A stretch of DNA of 64,000 nucleotides from Ruminococcus bicirculans (ex Wegman et al. 2014) (GTDB lineage: Bacteria; Bacillota; Clostridia; Oscillospirales; Ruminococcaceae): assembly GCF_000723465.1 (NCBI RefSeq), contig NZ_HF545616.1:1798001-1862000 (forward strand), written 5' to 3'. The translations under genes were made by a program, and so were the position numbers. Shown piece by piece: positions 6,596 to 11,416 of the stretch. The notes beneath the pieces were generated by a model that saw only the letters and a list, made by a program, of their open reading frames with translations, made no database searches and was not told where the DNA came from. Position 1 is the first letter of the stretch. Each line of letters starts with the position of its first letter.

Positions 6596-7945
6596 TTACT
6601 TTTCCTCCCCGTTTTCTTTCAGGCTCTTATATCTTTTTATTGCGGCTCTTGTCGGCTGAATAGCAGTATAATTGGCTATGGCGAACTTATCCCCCTTTGT
6701 GGAGAAGAGTGACGCTGTTGCTTCGTCAAGGTCAGGATAAACGAATATCTTGTCAGGGTCATAGCCTGAGCATTTTATTCTTATGGCGATATCATATGCT
6801 CTCGTACCAGAAGTCACAACTCTGTCAACATTATTGAACACAGAGAAGTTTATATCCCATATCCAGGAAACGTCATGGCCGTCTGCAAGGTTATCGTTAA
6901 GGACAAAAAGCAGTTCCTTTGAGCCTGCCTGCTCGTTCATCACACGCAGGGTCATATTTGCGCCAACAGGGTTTTTGGCAAGGTTCACAAGCAGGCTTGA
7001 GCCGTCAACCTCAAAGCGTTCAAGTCTGCCGTTATTGACCTCGAAATGCTCGAAAGTGTCATGCAATATAGCCTTATCAAAATTATAGAGCTTTGCGGCG
7101 GTATAGACAGCCGCCATGTTATACATATAATAGATACTGTTATGAGCGGTCTTATATGTTTCCCCGTCTGCTTCAAAGGACGGAACAGTCAGGTCAACGT
7201 TCTTTATCTCCACCTCAGGCTCGATATTGCCGAAACCGCATTTCGGACAATGGAACTTGCCGATATGTGAATACTGATAATAGTCATAGACAAGCTCAGT
7301 ATCGCAGAAAGGACAGAACTTGCCCTCGCCCACCTCATAAGGCTTATCCGTTGCGCCCTGATATCTGTCAACGCTGAAATAGTGGATATTTTTATTATTG
7401 GGGTTAGCAAGTCCAAGTCTTGCCACGTTTGGGTCATCGGCATTGAGGACAACGTTGCCCTCAAATGTTTCAAGGAACTTTTTCACCTTGAGAATGAGTG
7501 TTTCCACCTCGCCGTTTCTGTCAAGCTGGTCACGGAAGAAATTCAGCAGAACAAGGGTCTGCAAATTGAGCTTTGAATAGACCACAGGAACGTGTGACTC
7601 GTCAGTTTCAAGCACGAGATAATCGGCATGGACTCTTCCCCTCATATCGCAGTGATTGAGCAGGAGGGAGCATATTCCCGTATCAAGATTGTTACCCTCC
7701 GGGTTTGTTATTATCTTCTTTCCACCGCTTGCAAAAATATGGCTGAGATAGTTTGTAACAGAGGTCTTGCCGTTGGTGCCTGTGACGGCGACGATAGGGC
7801 AATCCACCTTGAAAGCCTTAAGGCAGTCTTTATTTATAGTCCACAGCACAAGCCCAGGAAAGTTGCCTGCGTCCCTGCCAAGCAGGTGCAGAGTTTTTAC
7901 CATAAGCTTGCCGAAAATAATGGTGAAAGCGTTTTTTAAACTCAT
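6596..7945 (-). CDS. murT: Lipid II isoglutaminyl synthase, Mur-ligase subunit MurT
   Basis: A 449-residue Mur-ligase-like protein. The P-loop VTGTNGKTS is at residues 54-62, and a four-cysteine ribbon (CPFC ... CPKC, about residues 205-230) is inserted in the central domain, as in Staphylococcus MurT. The C-terminal part matches the DUF1727 domain. MurT activates the D-Glu carboxyl of lipid II with ATP and receives ammonia from GatD. It is the first gene of a four-gene minus-strand operon. Confidence 0.93.
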   Translation of the reverse strand: MSLKNAFTIIFGKLMVKTLHLLGRDAGNFPGLVLWTINKDCLKAFKVDCPIVAVTGTNGKTSVTNYLSHIFASGGKKIITNPEGNNLDTGICSLLLNHCDMRGRVHADYLVLETDESHVPVVYSKLNLQTLVLLNFFRDQLDRNGEVETLILKVKKFLETFEGNVVLNADDPNVARLGLANPNNKNIHYFSVDRYQGATDKPYEVGEGKFCPFCDTELVYDYYQYSHIGKFHCPKCGFGNIEPEVEIKNVDLTVPSFEADGETYKTAHNSIYYMYNMAAVYTAAKLYNFDKAILHDTFEHFEVNNGRLERFEVDGSSLLVNLAKNPVGANMTLRVMNEQAGSKELLFVLNDNLADGHDVSWIWDINFSVFNNVDRVVTSGTRAYDIAIRIKCSGYDPDKIFVYPDLDEATASLFSTKGDKFAIANYTAIQPTRAAIKRYKSLKENGEEK

Positions 7946-8032
7946 TTATGTATCTCCTATTAAAATAAAGTCGTATAAAATAATAATAGACCATAACGCC
8001 CATAATGTCAAGCATTTTAGACCTTTGCAAAC

Positions 8033-8076
8033 AAAAAAACACCGCACAAAGACGATAGGCGCCCCTTGTGCGGTGT
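8033..8076 (-). terminator. Terminator of amino acid ABC operon
   Basis: An 11-bp perfect stem (ACACCGCACAA / TTGTGCGGTGT) is followed on the minus strand by a run of seven T. It closes the operon that starts near 10,400. Confidence 0.9.
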
Positions 8077-8082
8077 TGGCTT

Positions 8083-8808
8083 CTATATAATTTTTGAGAG
8101 AAAATCTTTCAAGCGCTGATTTTCAGGGTGTGCAAAGAACTCTGACGGCTTGTTCTGCTCGAGTATTTTTCCGTCTGCCATAAACAGAACTCTTGAAGCA
8201 ACTTCCCTTGCAAAACCCATTTCGTGGGTAACGACAACCATTGTCATGCCGTCGTTTGCAAGCTGTTTCATAAGCTCCAGCACCTCGCCCACCATTTCAG
8301 GGTCAAGTGCAGAAGTAGGCTCGTCAAAGAGCATTACCTCAGGATTCATCGCCAGTGAACGTGCGATGGCTATTCTCTGCTTCTGACCGCCTGAGAGCCT
8401 TGAAGGATACTCGTCAGCCTTATCAGGCAGACCAACTCTTTCCAAAAGCTCCTCCGCCTTTTTGTCGGCTTCATCGGCTGTCATAAGTCCAAGCTTCACA
8501 GGGGCAAGAGTGATATTCTTTTTTATTGTAAGATGTGGGAAGAGGTTGAAATGCTGAAAAACCATGCCCATTCTCTGTCTGAGCTTGTTCATTTCATGCT
8601 CGTTCGCCTGAGTGATGTTCTCGCCCTCAAAGAATATATCACCTGAGGTCGGCTTTTCCATAAGGTTAAGACAGCGGAGAAAGGTGGATTTTCCTGAGCC
8701 TGACGGACCAACGATAACGACCTTTTCGCCCTTGTCGATAGTTTCGTTTATATCTTTCAGCACTTCGACCTCGCCGAAAGACTTGCTGAGATGTTTAACG
8801 TCTATCAC
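8083..8808 (-). CDS. Polar amino acid ABC transporter, ATP-binding protein
   Basis: A 241-residue ABC ATPase of the GlnQ/HisP type: Walker [10 protein letters not shown], signature LSGGQKQR, Walker B VMLFDEP and switch VTHE. A GTG start at 8808 is chosen because AAAGGAGG lies ten bases upstream and the product then begins [12 protein letters not shown] like its relatives; an in-frame ATG 21 bases further up has no site. Its start overlaps the permease end by 14 bases. It powers uptake of a polar amino acid with the permease and binding protein upstream. Confidence 0.93.
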
Positions 8809-9487
8809 TTTGCGACAGCCTCCTTTCAAGCTTTCCTACCAGATGAGTAAGCACAACTACCATTATAAGGTAAATAAGTGCAACTGTTATAAGCGGCATG
8901 AATGCCGAGAACGTCTGAGAACGGATTATATCTCCGCCCTTTGTAAGGTCCTGAATTGCGATATATCCTGCAACAGAGGTTTCTTTAAGCAAAACTATGC
9001 ACTCGTTTGCAAGGGCAGGCAGGACTGTTTTGAAAGCCTGCGGAAGAACTATTGATATCATTGTCTGACGATAGCTAAGGCCAAGGCTTCTTCCTGCTTC
9101 AAACTGACCGTTATCAACTGACATGATACCTGAACGGACTATCTCAGCCACATATGCGCCTGAGTTCACGCCGAATGCAAGCACAGCCACAAGAGTCTTG
9201 TCTATGTTCACACTTCCGAAAATAACAAAATATGTTATAAGGAGCTGAACTACCATAGGAGTTCCTCTTATCACTGTAAGATACACTCTGCAAAGGGCGT
9301 TGAGTATCTTCATTTTGCCTGTCTTATCATGAGTAGAGCGGACTATAGCCACAAGAAATCCCAACACAAAGCCAAGTATGACCGCAAAGAAGGTTATGAT
9401 AAGTGTTGTTTTAAGACCATTGGTAAGATAATGCCAACGGCTCTCGTCCAAAAAATTTTGCTGGAAATCGTCGATCAATTTGTTCAA
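8795..9487 (-). CDS. Polar amino acid ABC transporter, permease
   Basis: A 230-residue membrane protein of the HisM/GlnP family with about five membrane segments. The EAA loop lies around [20 protein letters not shown]. The N-terminal segment ([17 protein letters not shown]) is typical. It forms a homodimeric pore for the ATPase encoded next and receives substrate from the lipoprotein encoded upstream. There is one permease only. Confidence 0.92.
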
Positions 9488-9555
9488 TTCAGCACTTCCT
9501 GTTCTTTATCAAAATAATTTCGGCTGCCGCTCTACGACAGCCGAAGTGTGAAAAA

Positions 9556-10335
9556 TTATTTCTTTCTTACGATTATTACCTGACTTGATGATGTGTAAGT
9601 GTCAGAGAAAAGAACGTTTTTCTCTCTGTCAGGTGTAACTGTCATACCTGCAACGCCAACGTCTGCCTTGCCTGACTGAACGGCTGAGATGATAGAATCA
9701 AATGCCATATCGTCTATCTTAAGCTCATAACCAAGCTTGTCGCAAACTGCCTGCATCATATCAGCGTCGATACCAACGACCTTATCATTCTCCTTGCTCT
9801 CGTATGGAGGGAACTCAGCGTTTGTTGCCATTACAAGTGTACCCTTATCTCTGCTAACATTATCAGGGGACTTGTATGGGTTCTTGCCAGCGTTCTCGCC
9901 AACGTAGTTTGCCTTGATAGCGTCAAGTGTTCCGTCAGCCTTAAGCTCCTTGAGCGCACCGTTGACAGCTGTCTGAAGCTCAGTGTTGTCAAGCTTCATA
10001 GCGATAGCGTATTCTTCCTCAGCAAAAGGCTCGTCAAGTATTTCAAGATCGTCATTCTTCTCAACGAATACCTTAGCAGGCTCAGCGTCGATTATAACAG
10101 CGTCTATCTTGCCCTGCTTCAGAGCCTGAACAGCATCAGCGCCCTTGTTGTATTTTTCTACCTTAGCGTCCTTAACGTCCTCGGCATAGATGTCGCCTGT
10201 TGTTCCAAGCTGAACACCGATAGTCTTGCCCTCCAGATCGTCAACGCTGTGAACTGTATTAGCAGGCACTCCGCAGCCTGCAAGCATTGTAACGCTCATT
10301 GCCACTGCAATAAGTCCTGCTGCAAATTTCTTCAT
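9556..10335 (-). CDS. Amino acid ABC binding lipoprotein with circularly permuted lobes
   Basis: A 259-residue lipoprotein (signal MKKFAAGLIAV, lipobox LAGC). Its sequence is that of a family 3 solute-binding protein, but in swapped order. Residues 29-146 (SVDDLEGKTIGVQLGTTGD ... ANYVG) match what is normally the second half, and residues 164-258 (GTLVMATNAEFPPYES ... GMTVTPDREKN ... FSDTYTSSSQVII) match what is normally the first half. The ligand-contact motifs FPPYE and TPDR are intact. The start at 10335 is picked for the signal peptide. It is the first gene of the ABC operon and is most likely functional as a two-lobed binder. The specificity is not readable. Confidence 0.88.
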   Translation of the reverse strand: MKKFAAGLIAVAMSVTMLAGCGVPANTVHSVDDLEGKTIGVQLGTTGDIYAEDVKDAKVEKYNKGADAVQALKQGKIDAVIIDAEPAKVFVEKNDDLEILDEPFAEEEYAIAMKLDNTELQTAVNGALKELKADGTLDAIKANYVGENAGKNPYKSPDNVSRDKGTLVMATNAEFPPYESKENDKVVGIDADMMQAVCDKLGYELKIDDMAFDSIISAVQSGKADVGVAGMTVTPDREKNVLFSDTYTSSSQVIIVRKK

Positions 10336-10406
10336 AACATACATTCCTTTCAAAAATTGATAGCGACAGTCCTCCAATACCGACTGTGCATAAACCTATA
10401 CCATAT

Positions 10407-10435
10407 ATTATAACTGAACACACGGCTTTTTGCAA
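10407..10435 (-). promoter_or_regulatory. Sigma-A-type promoter of amino acid ABC operon
   Basis: On the minus strand TTGCAA and TATAAT are separated by 17 bases, about 70 bases upstream of the binding-protein start. Confidence 0.6.
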
Positions 10436-10501
10436 TAGCTTTTATCAGTGATTTGATATATAAATTATGAATTTTTTGTTTTGCCAAACCATTTTAGTAA
10501 A

Positions 10502-10532
10502 CAAAAAAAGGTATCCACCCAACGGGGACACC
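10502..10532 (-). terminator. Terminator of cyclophilin gene
   Basis: An 8-bp stem (AGGTGTCC / GGATACCT, one G-T pair) is followed by seven T on the minus strand. Confidence 0.8.
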
Positions 10533-10549
10533 TCTTTGTGAAAATCAGC

Positions 10550-11185
10550 TTAGAAATTCATTGTGAACTGAACTCTGTGGTTGCCGTCTGCGTCATCATC
10601 TATCATTTCAGCCTTTACGATAGTGATAGGCGTAACAGGCTTTGACTGTGCGTTGTCTGAACCTGTTGTTCTCTCAACTTTAAGAAAGTCATCAACAACG
10701 TCCATGCCCTCTGTTACCATGCCGAAAGCCGCATACTGACCGTCAAGGAAGGTATCCTTATCGCTGTAGCAGATAAAGAACTGGCTTGAGGCACTGTCCA
10801 TATCATTGGCTCTTGCCATTGAAACAACGCCTCTTGTATGGCTCAGGCCGTTTTCAACGCCATTTGCTGAGAACTCGCCCTTGATAGTTTCCTTGCTTCC
10901 GCCTGTGCCGTCACCGTTAGGGTCACCGCCCTGTGCCATAAAGCCGTCTACAACTCTATGGAAAGTAAGTCCGTCATAGAACTTTTTCTTTACCAGCTTC
11001 TCGAAGTTCTCGCAGGTGATAGGTGCGTCATTGGCATAAAGCGTGATAACGAACTTCTTGTCAGTGTCAGCCGCAGAGGTCTGTGATGAGCTGTCACCCT
11101 TATCTCCGCAGGCTGTAAGAACTGCGCAGGCAAGCACGCCTGCTGTGCAAAGAGCCAATGCTCTGAATAGCTTTTTAAGTTTCAT
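10550..11185 (-). CDS. Cyclophilin-type peptidyl-prolyl isomerase lipoprotein
   Basis: A 211-residue lipoprotein (signal MKLKKLFRALAL, lipobox LTAC). The cyclophilin domain covers about residues 45-205 with catalytic-loop FHRVVDGFMAQGGDP (Arg of FHR), QFFICYSD and the YAAFGMV segment. It speeds cis-trans proline isomerisation, here on the outer face of the membrane, probably helping secreted proteins fold. The start at 11185 is supported by AAAGGA upstream and by the signal peptide. Monocistronic, with its own terminator. Confidence 0.93.
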   Translation of the reverse strand: MKLKKLFRALALCTAGVLACAVLTACGDKGDSSSQTSAADTDKKFVITLYANDAPITCENFEKLVKKKFYDGLTFHRVVDGFMAQGGDPNGDGTGGSKETIKGEFSANGVENGLSHTRGVVSMARANDMDSASSQFFICYSDKDTFLDGQYAAFGMVTEGMDVVDDFLKVERTTGSDNAQSKPVTPITIVKAEMIDDDADGNHRVQFTMNF

Positions 11186-11329
11186 TTTTATCGTCCTTTC
11201 GATCATTATTAATGGCACTTCTGCCTTTTCACTAGCCTATTATAGCACCTCACTGCAAAAAAATCAACATCAGACCATGTTTTTCACATAATTTTCATCA
11301 TACGAAGCCTAAAGTTGGCTTATTTAATA

Positions 11330-11358
11330 TTGATTTTTGACTCTTAATGGAGTATAAT
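11330..11358 (+). promoter_or_regulatory. Sigma-A-type promoter of yfhO-like gene
   Basis: TTGATT and TATAAT are separated by 17 bases, about 58 bases upstream of the start codon. Confidence 0.55.
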
Positions 11359-11416
11359 TATAATGTTTTTTAAAGAAAAATATAAAAACTATGTTATGTA
11401 TGGAGGACTGAACAAA

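Follow-up and report, generated by a model that had tools for sequence, protein, structure and literature searches.

A probable amino-acid receptor with a circularly permuted chain in Ruminococcus bicirculans, one of several natural permutations of family 3 in Clostridia

The receptor gene, its operon and its swapped blocks

The window analysed here, a stretch of 64,000 nucleotides from Ruminococcus bicirculans, encodes on its minus strand a solute-binding lipoprotein (P0001), followed 3' by the genes of a single permease and of an ATPase (Table 1). The receptor gene has the coordinates that an earlier note on this DNA gave for it, with its ATG at 10335, and it does stand first in an intact ABC operon, as that note had also stated. 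It is the sole receptor gene of its operon within the window, and the genome carries two canonical family 3 genes at other sites (L001, L002). The 71-base gap between the receptor and permease genes folds at -23.1 kcal/mol (a value computed without a shuffle control), and the predicted stem-loop may set the ratio of receptor to permease. A hairpin 3' of the receptor gene recurs in the genus g188. The ligand is most likely a polar amino acid; it cannot be named, because the receptor falls under the cut-offs of all 14 NCBIfam models listed. Rfam gave no match at gathering scores over positions 7900-11400, and thus no riboswitch or T-box clue to the ligand.

Table 1. Features of the locus and sets of related loci that were compared.
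Feature	Position or loci	Strand	Basis, nearest models or number
Circularly permuted family 3 solute-binding lipoprotein gene (P0001, 259 aa)	9556..10335	-	ORF, Pfam, PDB matches
Signal peptide and lipobox LAGC, with putative acylated Cys21 (from the LAGC motif)	10273..10335	-	Sequence
Block A (residues 30-91), the opening part of lobe 2, with invariant Asp83	10063..10248	-	
Block B (residues 92-150), lobe 2 exit strand, hinge strand 2 and the helices that usually end lobe 1 at the C-terminus	9886..10062	-	
Block N (residues 158-258), the half of lobe 1 that is usually N-terminal, with Arg237	9562..9864	-	
Inverted repeat (predicted stem-loop) between receptor and permease genes	9519..9545	-	Fold of the 71-base gap
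Single permease gene, PF00528	8795..9487	-	Nearest NCBIfam models GlnP and cystine permease, both under cut-off
ATPase gene, PF00005	8083..8829	-	Nearest NCBIfam model GlnQ, under cut-off
B-N-A proteins read	L137-L140, L142-L159, L161		n=23
Orthologues at the syntenic locus of g188, canonical and B-N-A	L185, L186, L188, L190, L191, L192		

We divided the chain into three blocks: N is lobe 1 up to hinge strand 1; A is lobe 2 as far as its last helix; and B runs from the last strand of lobe 2 through hinge strand 2 to the C-terminal helices of lobe 1. Canonical family 3 proteins have the order N-A-B, whereas the window protein has the order A-B-N, its new C-terminus being hinge strand 1, which closes block N. 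By profile it belongs to family 3: hmmscan matches it to PF00497 (SBP_bac_3) with an E-value of 3.7e-37 and 127.5 bits, against a curated cut-off of 26.4. This match comes in two stretches of reversed order, the best of which aligns residues 167-258 with profile positions 1-92, i.e., the usual N-terminal half, which lies here at the C-terminus. The search of the genome placed profile positions 85-131 upstream of positions 1-95 in one open frame. The PDB alignments are swapped in the same way. With phmmer, residues 31-141 align with positions 113-223 of the Thermotoga arginine-binding protein 6svf_A (i-Evalue 1.2e-21), and residues 162-258 align with positions 7-104 of the same chain (i-Evalue 4.6e-21). 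Among the 60 PDB matches listed, only the tandem 6h30 has its best stretch across both halves of the query.

The alignments lie far above what chance would give, and the swapped order is therefore real. Both lobes are present, with the Arg and the Asp that usually hold the amino acid, and the collinear order lobe 1, lobe 2, lobe 1 is absent; we therefore file the protein, by homology, as a circularly permuted variant and not as a canonical member of the family. It has the full set of homologous blocks, rotated in one chain, when compared with close canonical homologues such as L172 (identities to the window protein of 72% in N, 80% in A and 49% in B) and L174 (74%, 68% and 55%, respectively). 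The earlier note had read the halves as reversed and both lobes as complete, and was right on both counts: the PDB alignments cover both halves and the cleft positions are kept. This matters for annotation, since a collinear profile registers the chain as two wrongly ordered stretches.

The cleft is strongly conserved. Among 54 aligned permuted sequences, Asp83 and Gln42 are present in all, Gly230 in 53, and Arg237 and Phe175 in 52 each, and position 232 is Thr in 36 and Ser in 18. We take these positions to match the ligand residues of GlnBP, including its Arg and Asp. Comparisons with five orthologues point to purifying selection on the window gene, with dN/dS of 0.11 and 0.12 at dS of 1.3 and 1.6, and of 0.03 and 0.07 where dS exceeds 2 (the fifth was not computable); the high dS makes the ratio rough. 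The genetic organisation is also conserved: a permease (downstream or fused) and a downstream ATPase accompany 104 of the 106 A-B-N frames with enough downstream sequence, a count that includes repeats (the 116 A-B-N frames represent 97 distinct cores). L081 and L083 are A-B-N loci without a nearby permease. Of the 38 loci that are at least 7 kb long, 35 have exactly one permease gene, a count that points to a permease homodimer. Among 98 distinct A-B-N cores, 94 are preceded by a lipobox-like motif, and the core is 230-238 aa long in 76 distinct units.

The predicted fold and the place of the lipid anchor

We modelled the mature chain with AlphaFold2, using an alignment (A1) of 54 permuted sequences, and obtained a confident model (pLDDT 93.1, pTM 0.86). 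The structure prediction and superposition that the earlier note had proposed agree with its reading, since the halves fit canonical structures in swapped order. With VIA-align, model residues 4-127 superpose on residues 134-260 of 4ymx_A (Z 13.6, 2.1 Å, 124 residues), residues 3-127 on 123-247 of 6svf (Z 13.2), and residues 142-233 on domain 1 of TmArgBP (6gpc_A 6-98; Z 10.7, 2.4 Å). The longest sequential match among the 50 listed is the two-lobed OpuAC (2b4l; 207 residues, Z 12.2, 4.9 Å), and further sequential matches, of about 155-180 residues, are canonical binding proteins and LysR effector domains. We take these whole-length sequential matches to reflect the pseudo-symmetry of the lobes. 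Foldseek, which is bound to chain order, fits the chain as a whole poorly, with query TM-scores of only 0.33-0.48 among the 50 matches listed. A canonical control model (L092 with L093-L095, four rows) had a pLDDT of 54.9 and a pTM of 0.45 and was left unused.

We deduced the shared cleft and the number of crossovers between the lobes from secondary structure and topology, and from superposing each half separately. In the model, the former hinge strand 1 comes last (mature residues 228-237) and now forms the chain end, and the long strand at residues 85-94 is hinge strand 2. The latter would be the only covalent crossover between the lobes, whereas the canonical fold has two. The linker between blocks B and N (mature residues 123-145), which has no helix or strand in the model, would join the old termini, and the new termini would lie at the hinge. 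By this topology, hinge strand 1 would be a free C-terminal strand and the lipid would tether lobe 2 instead of lobe 1, in line with the displaced anchor that the earlier note had proposed.

We conclude that the product of the window gene is very probably the lipid-anchored receptor of an ABC importer for amino acids, with a circularly permuted chain. The protein would have the usual two-lobed flytrap fold, in which the amino acid would be caught between the lobes and passed to the permease homodimer as in GlnH/GlnPQ. A homodimeric permease would present two like docking faces, and which lobe is tethered may matter little. Together with the pseudo-symmetry of the lobes, such like docking faces may explain why permutations are tolerated and recurrent in the family.

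Permuted orders across Clostridia

The order A-B-N marks a clade, and it is also found fused to the permease and in tandem arrays. In the genus of the window genome, 15 of 29 genomes encode the permuted protein (one copy is cut by a contig end), the nearest homologue being 89% identical (G012, Ruminococcus sp., L035). The search with the two halves, proposed in the earlier note as a way to count homologues with the swapped order, showed 57 of 61 named loci to be permuted, two of them tandem, and L092-L095 to be canonical; this is no frequency, because the query is itself permuted. These loci are mostly titled Ruminococcus, Oscillospiraceae and Lachnospiraceae. Full-length matches of at least 200 bits occur in 65 of 297 genomes of the family (excluding one match cut by a contig end) and in 23 of 391 genomes of the class; tabulated counts were made by hand. 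The search of the phylum (398 genomes, E 1e-38) returned full-length single-unit matches in the window genome and in two others of its class, one of them fused to the permease. It also returned one such match outside the class (G783, 192 bits), read as A-B-N, and a tandem array (G837).

In 15 cases the A-B-N frame runs on into the permease (L068, L076 and L079 among them). L077 encodes three A-B-N units with the permease behind them in one frame, and L021, L022 and L203 do the same with two units. The locus ends within the tandem arrays of L020, L034 and L082. For L020-L022 and L034, in which the block models fail to find some blocks, the units were counted by the two-half search.

The window's order is one of several different natural permutations of family 3 in Clostridia. 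Matches that align from model positions 53-70 to the end have the order B-N-A wherever they were read, with the cut in lobe 2, just ahead of the strand that enters hinge 2. Genomes with this type of match number 34 of 391 in the class search, and four are listed in the family search; reading covered 20 of the former and three of the latter and confirmed B-N-A in 23/23, each time with a lipobox-like motif before block B. A third cut is known from one sequence, L163 (G132:C8:68700-70600), whose chain begins with the first strand of lobe 2 and has the preceding helix at its C-terminus (a shifted A-B-N); on the tree it is nested among B-N-A proteins. L160, which aligns from model position 94 and had been considered as a further permutation, is canonical when read.

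We built a tree of the receptors after rotating their blocks to a common order. The 184 rotated rows (rows with at least 40 gaps already removed) were reduced to 113 at 85% identity and thinned at 78% to 73 for the tree of chain orders, which omits L001, L141, L156, L164, the first unit of each tandem array and all units of L020, L021, L022 and L034. Parsimony on this tree requires at least eight changes of order, four of them for B-N-A, all forced by starred branches. We take the canonical order as ancestral, because both PDB alignments shown are canonical and, of the 60 PDB matches listed, none but the tandem 6h30 spans both query halves with its best stretch. The tests reject a single clade of B-N-A (log-likelihood 136 lower, AU p 6e-5) and also one of all A-B-N (98 lower, AU p 1.5e-4), the latter probably mostly because L163 falls inside B-N-A. 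The clade of the window protein has 35 rows and a support of 84/77 (57 rows at 96 in a larger quick tree). This main clade is compatible with one origin, and neither its union with L126 (p 0.45) nor that with the L127 group (p 0.07) is rejected, so that several origins of the window's cut are not established. Two sister pairs of B-N-A and N-A-B have a support of 100/99; besides the group in g188 (below), a second canonical/B-N-A sister group joins G329 with G428 and relatives.

Canonical and permuted forms meet at one locus in the genus g188, where each of eight genomes has one high-scoring homologue, with the order B-N-A in G378, G519 and G627 and N-A-B in G405, G455, G477, G578 and G610. Six of the eight genes (not those of G578 and G627) lie between the neighbours F5-F6-F7 and the permease-ATPase pair. 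Block by block, the canonical and B-N-A genes are 72-83% identical in DNA. From G405 to G519, the signal peptide aligns with the start (77%), bases 664-813 with the stretch right behind the signal peptide (75%), and bases 122-658 with the remainder of the gene (81%); the same three stretches are 72, 81 and 83% identical in G378. The hairpin 3' of the gene is similar in the two forms, and FTTVE.GKL, formerly the N-terminal linker, lies inside the B-N-A chain. This pattern is the trace that would be expected of tandem duplication and trimming inside one gene. No remnant of a second copy was found beside the B-N-A genes of g188, the matches outside the gene being of 9-19 bases with E of at least 0.16 (plus strand, 400 bases on each side).

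The permuted order probably originated by tandem duplication of the mature domain within one reading frame, followed by the loss of the start of the first copy and the end of the second, with the signal peptide retained. Among the patterns of reading frames examined there is no intermediate with a duplicated block, such as B-N-A-B, so the duplication route is one that we infer, and the case seen in place at the DNA level (g188) concerns B-N-A, whereas the window protein is A-B-N.

Partner genes usually follow the receptor in both forms: of 17 loci compared, 15 have both, G496 (B-N-A) has neither and G435 (B-N-A) has the permease only. In g188, the permease frames have 316-366 aa in five of eight loci (L185, L186, L187, L190, L191) vs 253-269 aa in the rest; judged by frame length alone, the longer ones look as if they carried an N-terminal extension.

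Competing explanations and known permutants

Other readings of the window gene have to be weighed against that of a permuted receptor. An error of assembly or binning could have fused the halves of two adjacent canonical genes, since a single genome could be wrong and two tandem genes that kept their junction and lost their ends would yield A-B-N. The earlier note had named such an error as grounds for abandoning its claim. However, the order is common to independent assemblies, recurring in 14 further genomes of the genus and in the 57 named loci. The signal peptide stands directly before block A, unfused forms usually end 0-4 residues past block N, and the gene appears to be under purifying selection, so that we give an artefact practically no credence. 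The gene could also be the trimmed remnant of a tandem receptor array, one that no longer binds ligand and serves as a structural partner only. The arrays with in-frame permease described above would be a natural source of such a permutant, but the nearly invariant cleft positions of both lobes, the signs of purifying selection and the lack of another receptor gene in the operon within the window make this quite improbable. Finally, the halves might pair between chains, each flytrap being canonical but built from two chains. The new termini and the hinge strands lie together, and TmArgBP, a canonical relative, forms domain-swapped dimers, both of which would favour such an arrangement. The single-chain model is nevertheless confident, with its B-N linker, and the length of the A-B-N core stays within 230-238 aa in 76 distinct units. 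We thus hold a domain-swapped dimer to be highly improbable, and retain the permuted single-chain receptor.

The number of permutations raises a different question, i.e., whether there were a few early ones followed by reversions to the canonical order, or repeated permutation. Tree methods alone cannot separate gains from losses of order. In favour of reversion, the canonical G405 falls inside the B-N-A genomes of g188 on the permease and ATPase tree (63 operons, thinned from 123 in which both partners are present; starred branches) and by the identity of neighbouring genes, a position that reversion by recombination would account for. The receptor tree permits the three B-N-A proteins of g188 as one group (77/77). 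Either a reversion took place in G405, perhaps through recombination, or g188 saw more than one permutation. On the other hand, the solved relatives in the alignments shown are canonical and canonical tips surround the permuted ones, and both the rejection of a single B-N-A clade and the two well-supported sister pairs argue against few permutations with later reversions, which we regard as unlikely. Family 3 receptors of Clostridia are probably a permutation hot spot, with in-operon re-cuts that recurred at a small number of sites, in the hinge and in lobe 2, and gave A-B-N, B-N-A and the shifted A-B-N, with canonical and permuted orthologues at one locus in one genus and, in G405, perhaps a return to the canonical order.

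The window protein shares PF00497, the lobes, the likely ligand-contact positions and the operon partners with the canonical GlnH, HisJ and TmArgBP (SBP type II, cluster F), and differs from them in its order A-B-N, in an anchor predicted on lobe 2 and in termini at the hinge. Natural permutants of other solute-binding proteins are known. The crystal structure of TpMglB-2 (Tp0684, 'Type Ic / Cluster Bc') shows a natural circular permutation of a lipid-anchored binding protein that keeps ligand binding and conformational change and has relatives also in Gram-positive, often gut, bacteria (PMC4990184). TpMglB-2 has a type I sugar-binding fold and adds a fourth lobe crossover, whereas the window protein would lose one; the text consulted on it describes no canonical orthologue at the same locus, unlike what is seen in g188. 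The Pfam matches of the window protein at E 0.001 are SBP_bac_3, Lig_chan-Glu_bd and NMT1, and the type I sugar-binding family of the TpMglB-2 class is not among them. Glycine-betaine- and molybdate-binding proteins and CysB, with type II folds, form a circular-permutation family by structure comparison (PMC2395249). OpuAC, a member of that family, matches our model by fold only, as the window protein has no match to the betaine-binding Pfam family at E 0.001. Those permutants share less than 24% identity and bind different ligands, whereas the permuted and canonical forms described here are close homologues, and orthologues in one genus. We found no report of a natural permutant among family 3 amino-acid receptors in the open-access literature, and this case therefore appears to be new for that family.

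Circular permutation is an engineering tool, but the natural precedents found among binding proteins are highly divergent from canonical relatives, which makes cause and effect inseparable there. The permuted and canonical orthologues described here have similar sequences, and several different cuts are represented among them. The effect of the number of crossovers and of the place of the anchor on opening, affinity and delivery is thus directly testable, and such orthologues are also open to tests of how a protein moves between chain orders. The fusions to the permease offer one further comparison. As in the A-B-N fusions, GlnP-type proteins such as GlnPQ of L. lactis have a receptor domain or tandem domains ahead of the permease (6h30; PMC8025302); in the 15 A-B-N fusions, because their receptor domain is permuted, the permease is reached from the hinge strand instead of the C-terminal helix.
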